A program made the position numbers and the translations under genes. Positions 30,272 to 43,392 of a DNA stretch of 43,392 nt are shown in pieces. The notes under the pieces are model-generated. The model did no database searches and was not told the DNA's origin. It saw nothing but the letters and a program-made list of their open reading frames with translations. Source of the DNA: Flavobacteriales bacterium (lineage in GTDB: Bacteria > Bacteroidota > Bacteroidia > Flavobacteriales > BACL11); assembly GCA_002696275.1 (NCBI GenBank), contig NZRO01000052.1, forward strand, positions 31,493-74,884, in the 5' to 3' direction. Position 1 is the first letter of the stretch; the number at the start of each line of letters is the position of its first letter.

Positions 30272-31092
30272 ATTACATAGAATTATCATTTGTTCTGCAA
30301 GATAAAGATTTTATCTCTGATATAGTTGCTGCTAAATTAAATGAAATTGAGTTTGAAAGTTATGTAGTAACTGAAGACGGGGTAAATGCTTATATTCAGG
30401 AAAAATTTTATAATAAAGATAAGTTGAATTTAGTTTTATCTGATTTAGAAAACTTATTCTCATTTAATTATTCTATCAAATATATAAATCAAGAAAATTG
30501 GAATTCTAATTGGGAGAAAAATTTTGAACCGGTAGAAATAAATGAGAAATGTGTTATTAGAGCACATTTTCATGAAACAGTAGGCTGCAAGTATGAGATT
30601 GTTATTACACCTAAGATGTCATTCGGAACAGGACATCATGAAACTACTTTCTTAATGATTAATGAAATGTTTTGTTTGAATTTTAAAGGGAAATCAGTTT
30701 TAGATATAGGTTGTGGAACAGGAGTATTGGCAATTCTATCTAAAATGTTAGGATCTGAAGATACTTTAGGAATTGATATTAATGAATGGTCTTATGAGAA
30801 TTCTAAAGAAAATGCTGTTTTAAACAATATAGATTCAATTGAATTTTTACTAGGGGATATTAGTAGGATAAAAGGAGATTTTGATATTGTTTTAGCTAAC
30901 ATAAATAGGAATGTTATACTTTACGATATAGATAAATATTACAAGTCAATGAAAGAAAATTCAGATTTAATTTTAAGTGGTTTTCTTTCAGATGATGTTA
31001 CATTAATTAGAGAAAAAGCAGAAAGTTTAGGGCTTTCTTTAGTTTCTCAAAAAAATAAAGATAAATGGAATTTATTACATTTTATAAAATAA
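30268..31092 (+). CDS. prmA: Ribosomal protein L11 methyltransferase
   Basis: SAM-dependent methyltransferase that trimethylates ribosomal protein L11. 274 residues: an N-terminal substrate-recognition domain (INQENWNSNWEKNFEPVEINEKCVIRAHF) followed by a class I methyltransferase domain. Motifs include MSFGTGHHETTFLMI and the SAM-binding DIGCGTGVLAILSKMLG; motif IV-like FDIVLANINRNVIL is also present. It overlaps tpiA by 4 bases and its last 28 bases overlap the start of the 1480-residue ORF. Confidence 0.95.
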   Translation: MNYIELSFVLQDKDFISDIVAAKLNEIEFESYVVTEDGVNAYIQEKFYNKDKLNLVLSDLENLFSFNYSIKYINQENWNSNWEKNFEPVEINEKCVIRAHFHETVGCKYEIVITPKMSFGTGHHETTFLMINEMFCLNFKGKSVLDIGCGTGVLAILSKMLGSEDTLGIDINEWSYENSKENAVLNNIDSIEFLLGDISRIKGDFDIVLANINRNVILYDIDKYYKSMKENSDLILSGFLSDDVTLIREKAESLGLSLVSQKNKDKWNLLHFIK

Positions 31093-34000
31093 GAAGATCT
31101 TTAGCTTTAGTTTTTATAGTTGGTTTTTCTTTTCAATCTAATTCTCAGAAAATCACTACATTCTCTGAGGAGATTGATATCTTTCTCACAGAATTAGATG
31201 TATATCTAAATAAGTCTCAAAATGATGAGTTAAGACAAATTTCTAAAAATATTTCTAAAAGTTTTAGGAAGTTTAATATATCTGTAAAAGATCAGAAAAG
31301 TATTGTAGATATTTCCAATCTAATGTTAGGGGCAAAGATGAAACCTTCACCTTATTTTAGAGACTTCTTTAGTGTAGTTTTACAGATTAGTTCTGATCCA
31401 ATGAATAAAAGTAAACTGTCTGATTGGCTTCAAGTATCTAAAAATATACTTATAAATTCAAACTCCAAAAAATTGTTAAAGTATTGTGAGTTTACTTCTT
31501 CATTTTTGTCTAATAAAACATTACGAGATAGTAAAACACTTAGATGGACAGCTGATGCAAGTTCATTTAAGTTTAAGGATGAAATGGGAACTCCATATGT
31601 AGAGTTTAATACATTATTAGATTTAAATTGTACAAATAGAAATGGTTCCATAAATATTTATAATACTACCGGTAAATATTGGATTCAGAGTCACACTTTT
31701 CAAGGCTCAAAAGGACAGGTTGATTGGAGAGAAAGATCTTGGCCCTCAGATTCTGTTTATGCGAATTTGTCAGACTATTATATAGATGTAAGGCAGACTC
31801 ATTTTAAAGCTGATTCTGTTAAGTTCTTTAATAATACACTTTTTTCAATCCCTATTATTGGTCAGTTTTCTAATAAAATTGTCTCAGGTTCTGCTACAGA
31901 ACATTTTCCTGTGTTCAAGTCTTACAAAAAGAATATTGTAATTGAAGACATCTTGCCTAATGTCGATTATAAGGGAGGATATACTTTAAGGGGTCGAGAG
32001 TTTATTGCCGATGGTAGAAAGGACGCTTCTGCAAAGATTATAATAAAGAAAAATGGTAAAAACATCTTAGTAGCTAACTCAAGTATGTTTAGTATAAAAA
32101 AGAGTGTAATTTATTCATCATCAACCTCAGTAAAAATTTATTTTGATCAAGATTCTATTTATCACCCCTCTTTACAATTTACATACGAACAATCTGAGAG
32201 AAAGTTAAAACTTTATAGAGATAAAAAGGGCCTTTCTGGTTCTCCAATATATAATAGTTATCATCAACTTACAATGGATTCAGAATTGTTAGAGTGGAAA
32301 ATTGATGAAGATAATATTTATTTAGGGTCTCTTCCAGTTGCATCAGTCTCTACAGTAAATTTTGAGTCCATTTCATCTTATAATGATCAAATGTATCATT
32401 CTTTAAGAGGGATTGATAAGGTAAATCCATTAATGCTTATACATAAGTTTGTAAAAAGAAGTGGTAAAACGAATTTTTCTTCATCTGAATTCGCGGCTTT
32501 CGCAGGTTATCCATTAGAGCAAATTCAACCATATTTAATGAATTTGGCTAACAAAGGGTTCTTATACTATAATGTAGCGACACATAGAGCTACAGTACAG
32601 GAAAAATTAAAAAATTATGTAGATGCTAGGCTTCAAAAAGGAGATTATGATGTAATTATATTTCAGTCAAAGGTTTCTAAATCAGGAAATAACATGCTTG
32701 TAAATTCTTCGTTAAATCTAAATACAAAGGATTTGAATATTCTAGGTGTAAATTTTGTGTCTCTAAGCGATTCTCAGAAAGTATATATTCAACCATATGG
32801 AGGAAAAGTAAGTGTTAAGAAGAATAGAGATTTTGATTTTTCTGGTAGAATTTCTGCTGGAAGAGGTAGGTTTGTGTTGTATGGTAAGGACTTTAATTTT
32901 AAATATGATGATTTTAAGATTGACTTAAATAAAATTGATTCCGTACAGTTAGCAGTTCCGATTATACCAATACAAAGAGATGATTATGGGAATGAAAAGT
33001 TAGTCAGAATTAAAACAGTTATTCAGGCAGTTACTGGTGATTTGAAAATAGATGATCCTAATAATAAATCTGGATTAAAAAAGGATAGTTTTCCAGAGTA
33101 CCCAATATTTAAGAGTTTTGATGACTCTTATGTGTATTATGATAAGCCTTCTACATTTGGGGGAGTTTATAATAGAGAAAAGTTTTCATTTCATTTAGAT
33201 ACTTTTGAAATTGATAGTTTAGAAAGTTTTGCGGGAAAAGGATTGAGATTTCCTGGAACATTTGAGTCTGCAGATATATTTCCTGTTTTTCCAGATACAT
33301 TAACCATGATGGATGACTATTCTCTTGGTTTTATAAGGGAAACTCCAGTTCAAGGTTTTCCATTGTATGGAGGAAAAGCGAAGTATAATAATAAGATATA
33401 TTTGAGTAATGAAGGATTAAAAGGAGATGGAGTGTTAGAATACCTAACATCTAGTACAAAATCTAATGAAATCTATTTTTTCCCTGATTCTATAGCATTA
33501 TTTACACAAGAATTTGTACTAAATAAGGTAAATGAGGGTATTGAATTTCCTCAGGTAGAAAATTCAGAAACTTTTGGATTGTATGAGCCATATAATGAAA
33601 GATATAGGGTTCATAAATTAAAATCAGATTTTAATTTTTATGAAAACCAAGCAGAATTTAACGGAAATATAGTTTTAAAACCAACAGGCCTTACAGGTAG
33701 AGGTATTATGAATTTAGAGAGTTCTAAGATGGAATCCGATTTATTTACATATAATGCAAATTGGTTTGGTGCTGACACAGCTGATTTATCGGTATTTACA
33801 GATTTGGGAGGAATTGCATTTAAATCAAATGATTTAAAAACTCATATAGATTTATCTAGTAGGACTGGAGATTTTTTTTCTAACGGAAAAGGTTCGTTTG
33901 TAGAACTCCCTGCGAATGAATATATATGCTACATTGATATGTTGCATTGGGATATGGACAAACAAATGCTGACATTAGGAGATCAAGATCAGAATTCCAA

Positions 34001-35507
34001 AGGATCTAAGTTTATTTCTGTTCACCCAGAACAGGATTCTCTTTCTTTTGTTGCGAAAACCTCTACCTATAACTTAAGAGATAATGTAATCAATGTTAAT
34101 GGTGTGAATGATATTTTAGTTGCAGATGTAATAATCTATCCATCAAAGGGTTTTGTTGTAGAAAAAGGTGCATTTATACCTACTATTTCAGATGCGAGAA
34201 TTCTTGCTAATAATAGTACTCAATATCATCAGTTTACTAATGCAAGTGTCAATATTGATGGGGGTAAAAAATATACAGCAAGTGGAGATTATACCTATAA
34301 AGACGATCTTGGTGAAGAACAGCGTATTTTCTTTAGTGATATTTCAGTTAATGATGCAAAATCTACTATTGGAAGAGGAGAAGTAGATAACGCGGAACCA
34401 TTTAAAATAGGTTCTAAATTTTTATTTAAAGGGACTGTGAATCTAAAAGCATCACACCGATTGTTAACATTTGATGGTTTTTTCAAGATGAATAGTAATT
34501 GTAATTTGATAAAGGAAGAGTGGGTTGCTTTTTCTTCAGAAATAAATCCTAAACGAATTCAATTTAAGTTAGATTCTGAGTTAAGGAATGATGAAGGTGA
34601 TAGATTAGCTACTGGGATTTTAATGAATTTAGATTCAACTCATATGTATACATCATTTTTGAGTTTAAAGGAAAGACCAATTGATGTAGAAATAATAAGT
34701 GCAAACACCTATTTAAGTTATGATAAAAGAACTTCATCATTCATAATTCAGGGAGAGGATTCTATCTCTAATATATTTACATTAAATGAGAATAATTGTA
34801 AGTCTCAAGCAGAAGGAGTTATGGATATTAATTTGGATTATGGTCAATTAAAAGTTAAAAGTATTGGATTTGCTGATAGGGATGAGAAAAATAATAAAAC
34901 AGAGTTTCAAATGTTTTTAATGCTTGATTTTATGTTTAATAAAGAAGCTCTGTCTATTATGGCTGAAAATATATTTGAAGCTTATGGTGTAACTGATTTC
35001 ACTTTTGGAGAGTTTTACAGTAGAACACTTGCTCGTTTAGTAGGAAAGTCTAGATCAGAAGAATTGATTATTGACATTGAAGCTTTAGATGAATTTAAAG
35101 ATTTTCCAAATGAGTTGAATAAGACATTATGCTTTACGGATATAACTTTGGTTTGGAGCGACAAACATCAGGCTTACATAAATAAGGGAAAAATTGGTGT
35201 TGGTAACATTTATGATAGACAGTTAAATTCTGTAATGGATGGTTGGGTAAGATTAAGTAAAAAGAATGGAAATGATGTTTTGAATATTTTACTTAAAACA
35301 GAATATGGAGATGTATATTTCTTTGAGTATAAAAATAATGTGATGTTTTCTTATTCAACAAATGATGATTATAATAATATACTCATAAATATGAAGGCAA
35401 AAAATAGAAGAGCGGATGAGGGTAAGGGAAAGCCTCCATATCGATATGTGTATTGCTCTGAAGATAAAATGGAGCAATTTGATCGAGAAATTCGTAAAAT
35501 AGATTAA
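31065..35507 (+). CDS. Very large secreted hypothetical protein (1480 aa)
   Basis: Not assigned to a family. MEFITFYKIRRSLALVFIVGFSFQSNSQ forms a signal peptide, which supports the start at 31065 despite a 28-base overlap with prmA. After a helical region (about 30-150) most of the protein is beta-rich and repetitive in character: recurrent pieces such as YTLRGREFIADGRKDASAKIIIKKNGK, FDFSGRISAGRGRFVLYGKDFNFKYDDFKI, LSNEGLKGDGVLEYL and GNIVLKPTGLTGRGIMNLESSKM. This recalls the beta-solenoid or jelly-roll style of periplasmic lipid-transport (AsmA- or OstA-like) proteins, but that is a visual resemblance only. No membrane helix, lipobox or C-terminal sorting signal is obvious. It follows the prmA operon and precedes plsY by 22 bases. 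Confidence 0.8.
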   Translation: MEFITFYKIRRSLALVFIVGFSFQSNSQKITTFSEEIDIFLTELDVYLNKSQNDELRQISKNISKSFRKFNISVKDQKSIVDISNLMLGAKMKPSPYFRDFFSVVLQISSDPMNKSKLSDWLQVSKNILINSNSKKLLKYCEFTSSFLSNKTLRDSKTLRWTADASSFKFKDEMGTPYVEFNTLLDLNCTNRNGSINIYNTTGKYWIQSHTFQGSKGQVDWRERSWPSDSVYANLSDYYIDVRQTHFKADSVKFFNNTLFSIPIIGQFSNKIVSGSATEHFPVFKSYKKNIVIEDILPNVDYKGGYTLRGREFIADGRKDASAKIIIKKNGKNILVANSSMFSIKKSVIYSSSTSVKIYFDQDSIYHPSLQFTYEQSERKLKLYRDKKGLSGSPIYNSYHQLTMDSELLEWKIDEDNIYLGSLPVASVSTVNFESISSYNDQMYHSLRGIDKVNPLMLIHKFVKRSGKTNFSSSEFAAFAGYPLEQIQPYLMNLANKGFLYYNVATHRATVQEKLKNYVDARLQKGDYDVIIFQSKVSKSGNNMLVNSSLNLNTKDLNILGVNFVSLSDSQKVYIQPYGGKVSVKKNRDFDFSGRISAGRGRFVLYGKDFNFKYDDFKIDLNKIDSVQLAVPIIPIQRDDYGNEKLVRIKTVIQAVTGDLKIDDPNNKSGLKKDSFPEYPIFKSFDDSYVYYDKPSTFGGVYNREKFSFHLDTFEIDSLESFAGKGLRFPGTFESADIFPVFPDTLTMMDDYSLGFIRETPVQGFPLYGGKAKYNNKIYLSNEGLKGDGVLEYLTSSTKSNEIYFFPDSIALFTQEFVLNKVNEGIEFPQVENSETFGLYEPYNERYRVHKLKSDFNFYENQAEFNGNIVLKPTGLTGRGIMNLESSKMESDLFTYNANWFGADTADLSVFTDLGGIAFKSNDLKTHIDLSSRTGDFFSNGKGSFVELPANEYICYIDMLHWDMDKQMLTLGDQDQNSKGSKFISVHPEQDSLSFVAKTSTYNLRDNVINVNGVNDILVADVIIYPSKGFVVEKGAFIPTISDARILANNSTQYHQFTNASVNIDGGKKYTASGDYTYKDDLGEEQRIFFSDISVNDAKSTIGRGEVDNAEPFKIGSKFLFKGTVNLKASHRLLTFDGFFKMNSNCNLIKEEWVAFSSEINPKRIQFKLDSELRNDEGDRLATGILMNLDSTHMYTSFLSLKERPIDVEIISANTYLSYDKRTSSFIIQGEDSISNIFTLNENNCKSQAEGVMDINLDYGQLKVKSIGFADRDEKNNKTEFQMFLMLDFMFNKEALSIMAENIFEAYGVTDFTFGEFYSRTLARLVGKSRSEELIIDIEALDEFKDFPNELNKTLCFTDITLVWSDKHQAYINKGKIGVGNIYDRQLNSVMDGWVRLSKKNGNDVLNILLKTEYGDVYFFEYKNNVMFSYSTNDDYNNILINMKAKNRRADEGKGKPPYRYVYCSEDKMEQFDREIRKID

Positions 35508-36520: not shown

Positions 36521-36594
36521 GGCTCTGTAGCTTAACTGGATAGAGCACCTGACTACGGATCAGGAGGTTAGGGGTTCGAATCCCTTCAGAGTCA
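36521..36594 (+). tRNA. tRNA-Arg (anticodon ACG)
   Basis: 74 nt that folds as a complete cloverleaf. Acceptor stem GGCTCTG/CAGAGTC with one G-U, D stem GCTT/GAGC, anticodon stem CCTGA/TCAGG around the loop CTACGGA (anticodon ACG, read as ICG), variable loop AGGTT and T arm AGGGG-TTCGAAT-CCCTT. The discriminator is A. CCA is not encoded (CT follows), so it must be added enzymatically. A near-copy of the 3' end occurs about 300 bases downstream. Confidence 0.96.
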
Positions 36595-36599
36595 CTATT
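36585..36599 (+). repeat. Direct repeat copy 1 (tRNA-Arg 3' end)
   Basis: TTCAGAGTCACTATT covers the 3' acceptor strand of the tRNA plus 5 flanking bases. It matches TTCAGAGTCAATATT at 36883-36897 at 14 of 15 positions in the same orientation. Confidence 0.5.
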
Positions 36600-37159: not shown

Positions 37160-38614
37160 ATGATAAAAAAAGTATTTTTCTTTTCCTTTATTTTCGTTTT
37201 TTCAAGTCTTTTTTCTCAAGATTCAACTATTTCTGATACGAACTCATTGTTACTGAAAAAGTATAATAAATATAAGCTCCTTTATAATGTTAATTGTGTG
37301 CAAGATAAAATAACAGACAACCAAGGAAATGGTTTTGAAAATTTATATGGAACAAGAAATTTTAGAACAATTTTACATGGGGTAGCGTATCGAGGGGGAG
37401 GAAATAATTACTATCATAGGACAAATAAAAGATCTAATAAGAATCCACTTCCAATAGATGGTTTAAACAATCTACTTAATAATGGATTTTCTACATCTGT
37501 ATACTTATATGTTGAGAATTTTGAGACAGCTCCTAGTTTTTTAACTAACGAGAATTCGAACGATACATTAAAATATTTTCAGTTAGGTGGTAACACCTCT
37601 TCAGAACTTGATAGTATATTAATGTTTACTTATAACTCTATCACAAATCATGAATTAGGTCCAGTTTATTTACATTGTTGGAATGGTTGGCATCAATCTG
37701 GTTTTGTTTCAGCTGTTTTGTTGAAACAGTTTTGTGGTTTTTCTACAGAAACTGCTCTTCACTATTGGGAGGATTGTGCTGATAATTGGACTAGAGGATA
37801 TGATAGAATAAGAAATGCTATTAGAGACTTTGAACCTTTAGAAAAATATTCAATATCAGAAGAGATAAGCAATGAAATTTGTCCATGTTATGATGATGAA
37901 AGAGCAAATGATAAAATAATTGTTCAGAATAATAATGATGAGTTAAAATCATTAAAAATAACCGTTCTATTTCCTTCTAATATTTCTGATCTACCACCTT
38001 CTGTTTCTACTTTTTTGGATGAGTACGCTGCAATGTTAAAAGAAAATTCATATTTAGGAGTAGAGGTCTCTGGACATACTGACTCTAAAGGTTCCAAAGA
38101 ACATAATTTAGTTTTGTCTGAAAAGAGAGCTCAAAATGTAATGGACTATCTGATTCTGCAAGGAGTAGACTCTTCTCAATTAAGTTTTAAGGGTTATGGT
38201 GAAGAACTTTTGACTAATGAATGTAAAGATGATGTTTGGTGTTCTAAAGAGCAACATGCTAAAAACAGAAGAATTGATTTTAACATTACAAATATTTCTT
38301 ACCAAATTAATTTTAATAAAAATAGTTCTATTATTAGTCCAAAAGATAAGCTTGTTTTAAATGACATCTTATTAATATTAAATTCAGAAGAGAATATGAA
38401 GATTGAGATTGGAGGTCATGCTGATAAGGGTACAGGAAATGATTTCTTAAATGATAACATTTCCACTTTAAGAGCAGAAAGAATATATAATTATCTGAAA
38501 GAAAATGGACTTGACATGACTAATATTTCTTTTGTAGGATATGGTTCTAGAATAGAAAAATATAAAGATGAAAGAGACAGAAGGATTGAATTTAAGATAT
38601 TAAGAAATGAATAG
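37160..38614 (+). CDS. Periplasmic phosphatase-like protein with two OmpA domains
   Basis: 484 residues. Signal peptide 1-19 (MIKKVFFFSFIFVFSSLFS). Residues about 60-230 resemble a dual-specificity phosphatase: an entry motif VAYRGG then GLNNLLNNGFSTSVYLY, and a P-loop-like VYLHCWNGWHQSG (169-181). The nucleophile Cys173 is kept, but the P-loop Arg of HCxxGxxR is Gln179, so catalysis is doubtful and a binding (pseudophosphatase) role is possible. Residues about 262-375 and 380-482 are two OmpA-C domains with GHTDSKGS...NRRIDF and GHADKGTG...DRRIEF, carrying the Asp and Arg that hold peptidoglycan. It overlaps the downstream CotH gene by 8 bases. Confidence 0.85.
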   Translation: MIKKVFFFSFIFVFSSLFSQDSTISDTNSLLLKKYNKYKLLYNVNCVQDKITDNQGNGFENLYGTRNFRTILHGVAYRGGGNNYYHRTNKRSNKNPLPIDGLNNLLNNGFSTSVYLYVENFETAPSFLTNENSNDTLKYFQLGGNTSSELDSILMFTYNSITNHELGPVYLHCWNGWHQSGFVSAVLLKQFCGFSTETALHYWEDCADNWTRGYDRIRNAIRDFEPLEKYSISEEISNEICPCYDDERANDKIIVQNNNDELKSLKITVLFPSNISDLPPSVSTFLDEYAAMLKENSYLGVEVSGHTDSKGSKEHNLVLSEKRAQNVMDYLILQGVDSSQLSFKGYGEELLTNECKDDVWCSKEQHAKNRRIDFNITNISYQINFNKNSSIISPKDKLVLNDILLILNSEENMKIEIGGHADKGTGNDFLNDNISTLRAERIYNYLKENGLDMTNISFVGYGSRIEKYKDERDRRIEFKILRNE

Positions 38615-40850
38615 AGTATTTTTATTTCTATTCATTTTTTGTAGTTTCTTTTCTATTTCTCAGGAAGTCCATTTTTCTCATGAAGCAGGTTTTTTTGAAC
38701 ATCCATTTTATTTAAAAATTCATGCATCTGATACTAAGGTTTTATACTCATATCAGAATAATATAAATAAGAGAAGTAAGATATATAAAGATTCTATTTT
38801 AATAGATAAAACAACAACTATTGCTTTTGGTTTGTTACGTGGAGATTCGGTTGTAAAATTAGGATCTAATACTTATTTTATTGGATTTAAAACTAAATTT
38901 AATGTTGTTTCTATTTCTGTCTCTGAGAAAGCTTTATATGATTCTATTACAGGAATTTATGTAGAAGGACCTAATGCTTATTATGATACTACTCTAAAAG
39001 TTATGTTAAACTCTAACTATTCAAAAAAAATGGAAAGAGATGTTTATGTGGAAATGTATAATAATTTAGGAGAGAGAATAATAAGTCAAGATGCTGGAAT
39101 AAGAATATTTGGTGGAATGACTATTTATTACCCTGAAAAATCATTGAGATTTATTGCAAGAGATATTTATGGTAACTCTAGATTTAATGCAAATATTTTT
39201 AATTCTGGAGAGAAACCATATAAACAATTTATATTAAGACATTCGGGGAATGATTATTTAAAAACACGATTTAAAGATGTTTTATCTACTACAATAGCTG
39301 CAAAATCTAATATAGATGTACAAGCAAACAATCCATCACATTTATTTGTAAATTCAGAATATTGGGGTGTTTATAATATTAGAGAAAAGATAAATGAATT
39401 TTATATTGACAATCACTACAATTGCGGTACTGAGGGTGTAGATATGCTTCAAGCTTATAATTTTGTAGAAGAGGGTTCAGGAGAGAAGTATGATCTTTTA
39501 TTGCAATATGTAGACGAAAATAATTTGAATGATTCAGAACATTATAATCAGATTAAAAAGATGATGGATGTAGAGAACTTTGCAAATTATTGGATACATC
39601 AAATTTATTTTGGTAATACAGACGCTAGAGGAAATATTAGATTTTGGAGATCTGATTCATTAAATGGAAAGTTTCGATGGATATTATATGATACGGATTT
39701 AGGTTGGGGGAATTATAATAGTAATCTTTTAGAAGATTTTACATCTCCCATAAAAACAAAATGGTATAATCCTACATGGTCTACTTTCTTATTGAGAAGT
39801 TTATTAAATAACAAAGATTTTCAATCCTACTTTATTAACCAATTTTCATTTTTACTATCTACTCATCTAAGTACTGATGTTGTACAAGAAGAAATAAATG
39901 TACTTGAAAATAAGTATAGACTGGAGATGGAATATCATTATAAACATAGAAAAAAATTTCAAAGAAATCAGGGGAGTATTAACAGATGGCAAAAGGCAGT
40001 AGACCAGCTCAATTTCTTTGCTTTAAAAAGAGATAATGTTTTATATAGTCAGTTGAAGCAAAAGTTTGATTTAAACGATAGGTATTTAGTAAGATTAAAT
40101 ATTAGTAATTTTAAAGATGGTAAAGTTTATGTTAACAATAATATAATTCTTTCAGATACTTCAGAACTTTCATTTTATGTGGATTTAAGAGTTCCAATTA
40201 AAATTATACCAAATGTTGGTTTCTCTTATTCTGGCTATGAAAAGAGTTTTATTGTCCCTAATTCTAATAAAGAGCTTGATATTAATATTAATTTTATTCC
40301 GAATAAGAAATCAGATTTCAATGTTATAATTAATGAAATTGATTATAAAAATGATTGTATAGAGATATTAAACTTGGAAAATAAAGATGTTGACTTAAGT
40401 GGTTGGACTATAATAGATAAGAATTCTAATGTTTGTATAATTTCAAAAGGAATTCTTCCTAAAAATAAATTTGCAGTTTTTCATCGGAATGATACAATTG
40501 AATATATTGACTCAGTGGTATATTTTAATATTGGGTTTGGTATTTCCTCTGTTTCAGAAAAACTGGCATTATATGATAGAAAAGGAAATTTTGTAGATAG
40601 TGTTTCTTACACTATTTCGGAACGGAAAACTAGTTATATAAGAAATATACCATTTGATAGTATTTATAATGAGAAATTTCATTGGGAAAATACTATAAAT
40701 GAAAGTATAGGATTACACAACGAACCTTATTTAGTAATACTTGATCAGTTAGAAACAAAAAGATATATTAGGAATATTCTAATAATATCTCTTATTTCAA
40801 TACTTGTAATTATTCTTTTAGTATTTATTTATAGAAAGAAATCTACTTAA
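38607..40850 (+). CDS. CotH-family protein kinase with lamin-tail domain and C-terminal anchor
   Basis: 747 residues. Signal peptide 1-18, then a small beta domain of FN3-associated/chitobiase-like type (EAGFFEHPFYLKIHAS, about 24-95). The CotH kinase domain (about 110-470) carries GIRIFGG, PEKSLRFIAR, FVNSEYWGVYNIREKINEFYI, NTDARGN (337-343) and RWILYDTDLGWG (357-368). The two acidic motifs correspond to the metal-binding aspartates of characterised spore-coat CotH kinases and look intact. A lamin-tail-like domain (about 572-675: VIINEIDY...EILNLENKDVDLSGWTI) and a C-terminal helix (722-743) followed by RKKST anchor it with the kinase outside the cytoplasm. It overlaps the OmpA-phosphatase-like gene by 8 bases; substrate unknown. 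Confidence 0.88.
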   Translation: MNRVFLFLFIFCSFFSISQEVHFSHEAGFFEHPFYLKIHASDTKVLYSYQNNINKRSKIYKDSILIDKTTTIAFGLLRGDSVVKLGSNTYFIGFKTKFNVVSISVSEKALYDSITGIYVEGPNAYYDTTLKVMLNSNYSKKMERDVYVEMYNNLGERIISQDAGIRIFGGMTIYYPEKSLRFIARDIYGNSRFNANIFNSGEKPYKQFILRHSGNDYLKTRFKDVLSTTIAAKSNIDVQANNPSHLFVNSEYWGVYNIREKINEFYIDNHYNCGTEGVDMLQAYNFVEEGSGEKYDLLLQYVDENNLNDSEHYNQIKKMMDVENFANYWIHQIYFGNTDARGNIRFWRSDSLNGKFRWILYDTDLGWGNYNSNLLEDFTSPIKTKWYNPTWSTFLLRSLLNNKDFQSYFINQFSFLLSTHLSTDVVQEEINVLENKYRLEMEYHYKHRKKFQRNQGSINRWQKAVDQLNFFALKRDNVLYSQLKQKFDLNDRYLVRLNISNFKDGKVYVNNNIILSDTSELSFYVDLRVPIKIIPNVGFSYSGYEKSFIVPNSNKELDININFIPNKKSDFNVIINEIDYKNDCIEILNLENKDVDLSGWTIIDKNSNVCIISKGILPKNKFAVFHRNDTIEYIDSVVYFNIGFGISSVSEKLALYDRKGNFVDSVSYTISERKTSYIRNIPFDSIYNEKFHWENTINESIGLHNEPYLVILDQLETKRYIRNILIISLISILVIILLVFIYRKKST

Positions 40851-41685
40851 TAATTGTAATAATAGCAGATTTTCCAACTTCAAGTTGAGTAATTATTGGG
40901 TATTTAGTTCTTGAGTCTACTAATTCAATTCTGCTGGTGTTTGGGGGATTCTCACCAACATTGATAGCTTCAATTTTTATTTTGTTTTCTCCAATTTTAA
41001 GGTTGTGTTTTATTTTTTTTCTTTTTTTTCTTGTTATATAGTCTGATAAAATAGTTTTATCATTAATAGAAAGATTAATTTTATCTCCATCCTCAGTGTT
41101 AGCGTCCCAGATATAGATTGTTAATTTATCAGAATTCCACTGAATATACATGTCATCTCCTTCTTTAAGTACTTTTGTACTAAGGATCTCATTATTTGTT
41201 CGTTTCTTGTTATATTTTTCAATTTTCTTTTCTACTTTTTTTGTGATTTTTTCTAATCTCTCTTTTTCCATTAAAACTATATCTCCATAAGCGCAAGTAT
41301 CTCCATTAGTAAACAATCCTACAAAAGTACCTTCATATCTTTTAAGTTGAAATTTACCTTTTTCTTTTACTTCCATGTTAATATAGCAGAAGGTATTAAG
41401 ATCTGCCTCAGATTTAGTAGATAGCACCTGAGTTTCTTTTAATTTATAGGTTTTAGTATTTCTATTATAAATTCCACTAATATCAGATTTAGTTTCGTTT
41501 TTACCTGCTTTATCTGTGATGGAAAAACCGTTTACTATACCTTTTTCTTGTGTTAAATTTATTTCATAAGCTATTGGTTTTCCATTTTTAATACTAATTA
41601 TTCCACTATAGATGTTTTCTTGAATATTTTGAGAAAAAAGGGAAAATGAAATTAGTATGAATAAAATAGATGAAAAGCTTTTCAT
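40843..41685 (-). CDS. Secreted hypothetical protein with C-terminal beta-sandwich
   Basis: 280 residues. Signal peptide MKSFSSILFILISFSLFSQ. Residues about 25-140 form a beta-rich unknown domain (YSGIISIKNGKPIAYEINLTQEKGIVNGFSITD). A charged helix follows (140-162, ERLEKITKKVEKKIEKYNKKR). Residues about 183-280 match a beta-sandwich common at the ends of exported Bacteroidota proteins: LTIYIWDANTEDGDKINLSINDKTIL...LKIGENKIKIEAINVGENPPNTSRIEL. It converges on the CotH gene with an 8-base overlap of the coding ends. The promoter box at 41690-41697 implies a leaderless message. Function unknown. Confidence 0.75.
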   Translation of the reverse strand: MKSFSSILFILISFSLFSQNIQENIYSGIISIKNGKPIAYEINLTQEKGIVNGFSITDKAGKNETKSDISGIYNRNTKTYKLKETQVLSTKSEADLNTFCYINMEVKEKGKFQLKRYEGTFVGLFTNGDTCAYGDIVLMEKERLEKITKKVEKKIEKYNKKRTNNEILSTKVLKEGDDMYIQWNSDKLTIYIWDANTEDGDKINLSINDKTILSDYITRKKRKKIKHNLKIGENKIKIEAINVGENPPNTSRIELVDSRTKYPIITQLEVGKSAIITIIK

Positions 41686-42925: not shown

Positions 42926-43392
42926 CTAAATAATCGATTCTAAAGAAATTCCATTAAAATTTCCAGAACTCATCATTAATAAATTACTATTTTTCCAGTC
43001 TAAAGATTTTAAATAGTCTTCTAAAGCATTAGAATCTGTAAAGACCAACAAATCCTCTCTTCCAAAAGATGAATGTACTTGTTTTTTTGTAATGGGTCTT
43101 AATTTTTTATGAGTAATAGCTGCCGGGCTAAAATAAACAATGGCAGTATCTGCTCCATCCATACTTCCCTTATATTGGTCTAGAAATTCTTCATTTAAAC
43201 TACTAAAAGTATGCAGCTCTATACAAGCTACAAGTTTTCTGTCGAAAAATTGTTTTTTCATGGCTGATGTGGTTGCTTTTAACTTCGAAGGTGAATGTGC
43301 AAAATCTTTATAGATTGCAGATGAATAGTGTTTTTTTACAAGTTCCAATCTTTTACTCGCCCCCTTAAAGGTAGATATTTTATCTAAGAAAT
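42926..43392 (-). CDS. mpl: UDP-N-acetylmuramate:tripeptide ligase Mpl (5' part outside window)
   Basis: C-terminal portion of a Mur-ligase family enzyme that joins recycled L-Ala-gamma-D-Glu-mDAP to UDP-MurNAc in the cytoplasm. The frame continues to the window edge: FLDKISTFKGASKRLEL precedes the TTG used by the ORF track at 43348. FKGASKRLEL, YKDFAHSPSKLKATTSAMKKQF, LVACIELHTFSSLNEEFLDQYKGSMDGADTAIVYFSPAAI are typical of the Mpl ligase C-terminal domain, where AHSP replaces the AHHP of many homologues. About 154 codons are visible. Its 3' end is the source of the near-copy at 42145-42170. Confidence 0.88.
   Translation of the reverse strand, partial: FLDKISTFKGASKRLELVKKHYSSAIYKDFAHSPSKLKATTSAMKKQFFDRKLVACIELHTFSSLNEEFLDQYKGSMDGADTAIVYFSPAAITHKKLRPITKKQVHSSFGREDLLVFTDSNALEDYLKSLDWKNSNLLMMSSGNFNGISLESII
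42954..42979 (-). repeat. mpl 3'-end repeat, intact copy
   Basis: TTAAAATTTCCAGAACTCATCATTAA encodes LMMSSGNFN near the Mpl C-terminus. It is repeated with two mismatches at 42145-42170, 809 bp away in direct orientation. Confidence 0.7.

Follow-up and report, generated by a model that had tools for sequence, protein, structure and literature searches.

A CotH-type candidate kinase paired with an arginine-less DSP-fold protein in the predicted cell envelope of a Flavobacteriales bacterium

The DNA analyzed here, referred to as the window, is a stretch of 43,392 nt on contig NZRO01000052.1 (GCA_002696275.1) of a Flavobacteriales bacterium from the GTDB lineage BACL11. The locus under study comprises two overlapping genes and a third that converges on them, with the following features:

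37160..38614, + strand: gene 1, a secreted protein of 484 aa with a DSP fold and two OmpA repeats (ORF, Pfam, AlphaFold, and alignment), consisting of a signal peptide (aa 1-20), an Arg-less PTP/DSP-fold domain (aa ~40-243), and the OmpA repeats (aa ~256-484)
37673..37702, + strand: DNA of the P-loop HCWNGWHQSG (aa 172-181), with Gln179 at the Arg position of PTPs and DSPs
38607..38614, + strand: overlap of gene 1 and gene 2, 8 bases, ATGAATAG
38607..40850, + strand: gene 2, a CotH-type candidate kinase of 747 aa, predicted to be secreted and membrane-anchored (Pfam, AlphaFold, and alignment), consisting of a signal peptide, an N-terminal beta domain, the CotH domain (aa 165-478), a lamin-tail domain (aa 572-669), and a C-terminal TM (aa ~723-742)
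40843..41685, - strand: a secreted protein of 280 aa, convergent on the operon, of no known family

An earlier note, made from this DNA alone, had proposed a two-gene system with an 8-base coding overlap, and both open reading frames and the overlap were confirmed. Its description of the products, a PTP/DSP-like protein with two OmpA domains followed by a CotH protein with a signal peptide and a C-terminal anchor, was also accurate (Pfam and hydropathy). The overlap is likewise 8 nt in four congeners and measures 0 to 14 nt in most other OmpA-type pairs. The suggestion that the 280-aa neighbor is a possible substrate or accessory of the pair found no support beyond the genus. No Pfam family matched this protein, and among the loci compared its gene lies beside the pair in the six genomes of the genus only; it is therefore no general part of the system, as the module elsewhere does without it. 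Farther upstream, the window encodes a 1480-aa exported protein without a family match (31065-35507), which several congeners keep upstream, before plsY and a ClpS-like gene, and a tRNA-Arg (acg; 36521-36595) lies between the ClpS-like gene and the pair. On the other side, a Mur-ligase C-terminal fragment (42926-43348) stands at the window edge, and this gene is cut because the window edge is the contig end.

The CotH assignment of gene 2 is clear in Pfam (PF08757, E 1.8e-43, 149.8 bits against a cut-off of 23.8), and the protein also carries a lamin-tail domain (LTD, PF00932, E 3.2e-14). Its hydrophobic N-terminus corresponds to an export signal, and its C-terminus is a strongly hydrophobic segment followed by RKKST. 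Since PDB sequence searches with the window CotH, a CotH profile, and two other CotHs found no CotH structure, the kinase fold rests on structure comparison: the two best PDB matches of the AF2 model of aa 20-518 (pLDDT 90.6) were the B. cereus CotH structures 5jda and 5jd9, determined with and without Mg-AMP (E 1e-13, TM 0.77). In an alignment of 15 diverse CotHs, D339, D362, E260, D216, and R475 are each kept with at most one exception, and Lys178 is invariant within the partner CotH group. The 23-residue spacing of the Asp pair D339/D362 agrees with residues 228 and 251 of B. subtilis CotH, compared by spacing, the latter presumably being its second Asp. For the B. subtilis protein, Asp228 is essential for auto- and trans-phosphorylation (PMC7821199). 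A degenerate kinase was rejected, as the fold is intact and the active-site residues are retained. Gene 2 is thus modeled as a CotH-kinase fold with its catalytic residues kept, which makes it a candidate kinase. The genome of the bacterium itself (G000, 1.79 Mb) has seven CotH copies; the six further genes, on contigs C33, C9, C41, C42 (two), and C16, have no DSP partner nearby, and several have ends like those of secreted sorting-tail proteins.

Gene 1 begins with a hydrophobic N-terminus ending in ..FSSLFSQ, and its OmpA part matches PF00691 in two stretches (E 8e-34) of the peptidoglycan-binding type, for which wall binding is predicted. The match of the remaining domain to Y_phosphatase2 is sub-threshold (E 0.023, 14.7 bits against a cut-off of 27), and in 45 relatives the best E values to curated families, 2.1e-05 (Y_phosphatase2) and 3e-06 (DSPc), do not place it within either family. 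Its AlphaFold model (pLDDT 93.9, pTM 0.92) matched the DSPs CDC14, TpbA, VHZ, Siw14, and PFA-DSP1 with a Foldseek probability of 1.00.

The P-loop of this domain is unusual, as it reads HCWNGWHQSG (H172-C173-W-N-G-W-H178-Q179-S-G) instead of HCxxGxxRSG, that is, C-x5-Q instead of C-x5-R. Arg was found at this position in none of the 66 loci collected in the genome scan described below and in none of five further profile-search genomes; Gln occupies it nearly throughout, with Met or Ala in two relatives. In contrast to this lost residue, Cys173 and both His (172 and 178) are invariant in 66 of 66 loci. The scan of genome contigs was partly seeded with HCWNGWHQ, and the invariance of the motif was rechecked by a profile search in 397 genomes of the order and 395 of the phylum. 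This search recovered the domain in 12 genomes (Gln in 11 and Met in 1), with E values of at most 4e-62 against at least 1e-4 for ordinary C-x5-R DSPs, and the same signature in these 12 genomes ruled out a search artefact. Concerning the general-acid Asp, no Asp or Glu upstream of the P-loop is conserved at a level of at least 85% in the alignment of relatives. Outside the loop, Arg66, Arg78, Cys192, Cys241, and Cys243 are invariant or nearly so, and Arg78 sits in a motif similar to the R-S-x-Q-P that canonical bacterial DSPs ordinarily carry. The three extra Cys (aa 192, 241, and 243), with a CPC end present in 62 of 66 loci, possibly form disulfides or a metal site.

The nearest solved sequence by profile is AtPFA-DSP1 (E 0.023), in which HCkrGkHrtG aligns to HCwnGwHqsG. 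Its activity is reduced 4000-fold in the C150S variant, His155 is catalytically important, and Arg156 binds the phosphate (PMC9038691). The window domain retains this Cys and His and has Gln in place of the Arg. With Cys and His kept and Arg lost, the loop is therefore strongly constrained yet bears no phosphatase signature. A canonical phosphatase was rejected on these grounds, and the partner, as judged from its sequence, is not a standard C-x5-R enzyme.

A scan of 84,980 species genomes yielded 65 loci with the domain, or 66 with the window. The DSP-like domain is single copy in its own genome, and CotH follows it directly in six of six genomes of the genus and in two genomes from a second family (f7) within the order. 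Overall, an OmpA-type protein followed directly by CotH was found at 16 of the 66 loci. A different arrangement occurs at 10 loci (L075, L076, L078, L079, L082, L084, L086, L087, L089, and L091), where a single ORF of ~1060-1185 aa places CotH in front of the DSP-like domain, with LysM and not OmpA as the wall anchor. At one locus, L088, the domain has a separate CotH gene immediately upstream. The domain occurs without CotH in the locus DNA examined at the remaining 39 loci, 32 of which are lone domains, mostly from Ignavibacteria and Kapabacteria, and seven of which are of the LysM type, one of these being cut by a contig end. The unbiased profile search added a third arrangement in G524, where the CotH and DSP genes are adjacent and overlap by 4 bases. 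The CotH of this genome (L112:9066-12101) has an extra C-terminal region past a second hydrophobic segment, without a Pfam match, at the site taken by the DSP domain in other lineages. Furthermore, in G674 and G696, two Ignavibacteria/Kapabacteria genomes of 99% completeness, the domain is present but CotH genes are absent; the domain must therefore have some function independent of CotH and cannot serve solely to reverse CotH phosphorylation. Conserved neighbors of the lone domain reflected local synteny only. Lone domains were also present in MAGs labelled Desulfobulbaceae and Bdellovibrionales (L063 and L072), and for L063 a binning error or transfer is likely because its sequence is nearly identical in the tree to one from Ignavibacteria. 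Many of the loci belong to related MAGs and so do not count as independent, but the arrangements nonetheless differ in order, linkage, and wall anchor. This comparison of genomes indicates that the pairing of the two proteins is real and old.

The CotH proteins of these pairs also differ from other CotHs in their C-terminal ends. A C-terminal TM was assigned to 23 of 26 partner CotHs against 2 of 34 others (Fisher p ~3e-11, uncorrected for phylogeny), none being detectable in the remaining three partners, and a T9SS sorting tail is found in 0 of 26 against 22 of 34 (Fisher p ~5e-8, likewise uncorrected); signal peptides and TMs were assigned by eye and hydropathy. Behind the CotH TM, the fusions carry, in sequence, a short loop with positive charge, a second hydrophobic segment, the DSP domain, and LysM. 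From this order, both enzyme-like parts should face the periplasm. The second hydrophobic segment is often signal-peptide-like (..STGASAQ, ..GKANSQ, and ..VASCNGQ), and because such a segment is kept between both parts, signal peptidase might split one translation product into two envelope proteins.

The tree of the DSP domain groups the OmpA-type pairs in a single clade (support 100/94, or 100/99 when set against the remaining labelled groups) near the lone domains, with a 100/99 branch separating them from the fused and LysM-type proteins. In the CotH tree, built with a quick method, all 26 partner CotHs are on one side of a branch with a support of 100, apart from related unpaired CotHs. 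The simplest reading of these trees is that the link to CotH is old in the partner CotH clade and persisted while gene order and wall anchor changed; alternatively, the domain may have been recruited independently from its lone form. The DSP-like domain evolves more slowly than CotH. The two proteins show correlated pairwise distances (overall r 0.92; 0.83 and 0.88 inside the two groups), for which shared species history alone could be a sufficient cause.

Most of the earlier note's expectations were therefore borne out. The pair is conserved in relatives (six congeners, other families, and recurrent fusion), structure prediction gave the OmpA protein a PTP-type fold, the ATP site of CotH appears intact in sequence (D339, D362, E260, and K178 kept; best PDB match B. 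cereus CotH), and the shared compartment that had been proposed is supported by the sequence features described above. In contrast, the idea that the partner reverses the phosphorylation as a canonical phosphatase failed on the C-x5-Q loop, the absence of a conserved Asp, and the domain in two CotH-free genomes.

The overlap, the conserved order, and the fusion in other lineages show that the two genes are coupled. We propose that they form a conserved envelope modification module, in which CotH modifies an envelope target and its partner acts by non-canonical Cys chemistry, and we give this proposal slightly less than an even chance. Close to the inner membrane, CotH would attach a phosphoryl (or nucleotidyl) group to a protein or glycan of the envelope, and its DSP-fold partner on the wall would act on the same modified target through such Cys chemistry, a role as a phospho-reader being the closest rival. 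A non-canonical Cys enzyme is likelier than a dead domain because Cys173, His172, His178, Arg66, Arg78, and the three Cys are invariant or nearly so, and because the domain is the slower-evolving of the two. On the other hand, the lost P-loop Arg and the missing upstream Asp argue against catalysis of a known type, and the occurrence of the domain without CotH in Ignavibacteria and Kapabacteria and as lone LysM proteins means that it is not strictly bound to CotH. ATP is normally unavailable in the periplasm, which also counts against a periplasmic kinase. The wider claim, that Bacteroidota possess an extracytoplasmic system of phosphorylation or nucleotidylation and that it pairs or fuses a membrane-anchored CotH kinase with a wall-anchored DSP-fold enzyme using Cys/His chemistry without a P-loop Arg, is possible, if doubtful on balance.

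In the window and in almost every relative, Gln stands in for the catalytic Arg, and no general-acid Asp is conserved. Both facts would also suit a pseudophosphatase that attaches to the phosphorylated target, or to CotH, and localizes or holds it at the wall without any chemistry, and fusion to OmpA or LysM anchors fits such tethering. However, a would-be nucleophile (Cys173) and two His that are invariant in 66 of 66 loci exceed the needs of binding alone, and the domain is also present where CotH is absent, so that we consider this role unlikely, while taking it seriously.

It is quite improbable that the partner is an active phosphatase after all, reversing CotH phosphorylation with a relocated Arg66 or Arg78 as the substitute for the P-loop Arg. 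Both residues are invariant, the His equivalent to His155 of AtPFA-DSP1 is kept, and the close fold relatives AtPFA-DSP1 and Siw14 are active though they have no general acid (PMC9038691). The residue lost, however, corresponds to Arg156 of AtPFA-DSP1, which is the phosphate contact itself (PMC9038691), Arg78 may be structural given the resemblance of its motif to the ordinary R-S-x-Q-P, and CotH-free genomes have the domain. Alternatively, CotH could act on a glycan, a lipid, or a small molecule (or AMPylate, among other reactions), with the partner working separately as an enzyme on that metabolite. AMPylases and glutamylases belong to the kinase-like superfamily (PMC10870513), and a FAM20/CotH cluster has been suggested to contain lipid kinases (PMC9758233); inositol-pyrophosphatases are among the closest DSP folds, and the lone domain of Ignavibacteria requires no protein kinase. 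The experimentally known CotH nevertheless acts on proteins (PMC7821199) and no metabolite is indicated in the present data, which makes such a target distinctly unlikely as well. Finally, although most pairs are from related marine MAGs and hence non-independent, a neighborhood due to chance or shared contig ancestry, without a functional link, is hardly credible in view of three arrangements including fusion, two wall anchors, and one CotH clade.

Separately, an anti-phage defence system was rejected, since PADLOC defence models gave only a generic OmpA/MotB match and a weak LTD match.

A literature search, mostly outside subscription journals, found no description of a phosphatase-like partner for CotH and none of a role for CotH in Bacteroidota. 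The parts are each of a known kind; to our knowledge, they are new in this combination, as is the Arg-less loop. Bacteroidota commonly carry CotH-type proteins, and the module provides one CotH clade with a partner and a compartment, as well as a reaction that can be tested. An active module would represent protein modification outside the Gram-negative cytoplasm, raising the question of the phosphate donor, and its DSP-fold member would add a novel kind of Cys site to the PTP fold.

Several known systems can be compared with this module. B. subtilis CotH functions in spore-coat assembly, and the window CotH shares with the spore-coat kinases of B. subtilis and B. cereus (5jda, 5jd9; PF08757) the fold, the Pfam domain, D339/D362, and Glu260. 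It differs from them in being exported, usually of a membrane-anchored type, with an N-terminal beta domain, a lamin-tail, and a DSP-fold partner, and no CotB/CotG-like Ser-rich substrate was seen beside it. Fam20C and CotH are distantly related (PMC7821199). The Fam20C-type eukaryotic secretory kinases likewise target proteins of the secretory route and not of the cytosol, but are not known to have a DSP partner of this type. Fam20C operates in the Golgi, with imported ATP. On the side of the partner, TpbA, a periplasmic DSP of Pseudomonas aeruginosa (4r0s/4r0t) that was among the top Foldseek hits, has the DSP fold and the periplasm in common with it; unlike the window partner, TpbA has a canonical C-x5-R loop, and we know of no CotH partner for it. 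The start motif YRGG of the partner resembles the YRSxQP of ordinary DSPs. The plant and fungal atypical DSPs AtPFA-DSP1 (At1g05000) and Siw14 share with it the fold, the His-Cys-x-x-Gly-x-His part of the P-loop, and the absence of a general-acid Asp. In contrast to these enzymes, the partner has Gln at the equivalent of Arg156, is exported, is linked or fused to OmpA or LysM, and carries four invariant or nearly invariant Cys, including the CPC end.
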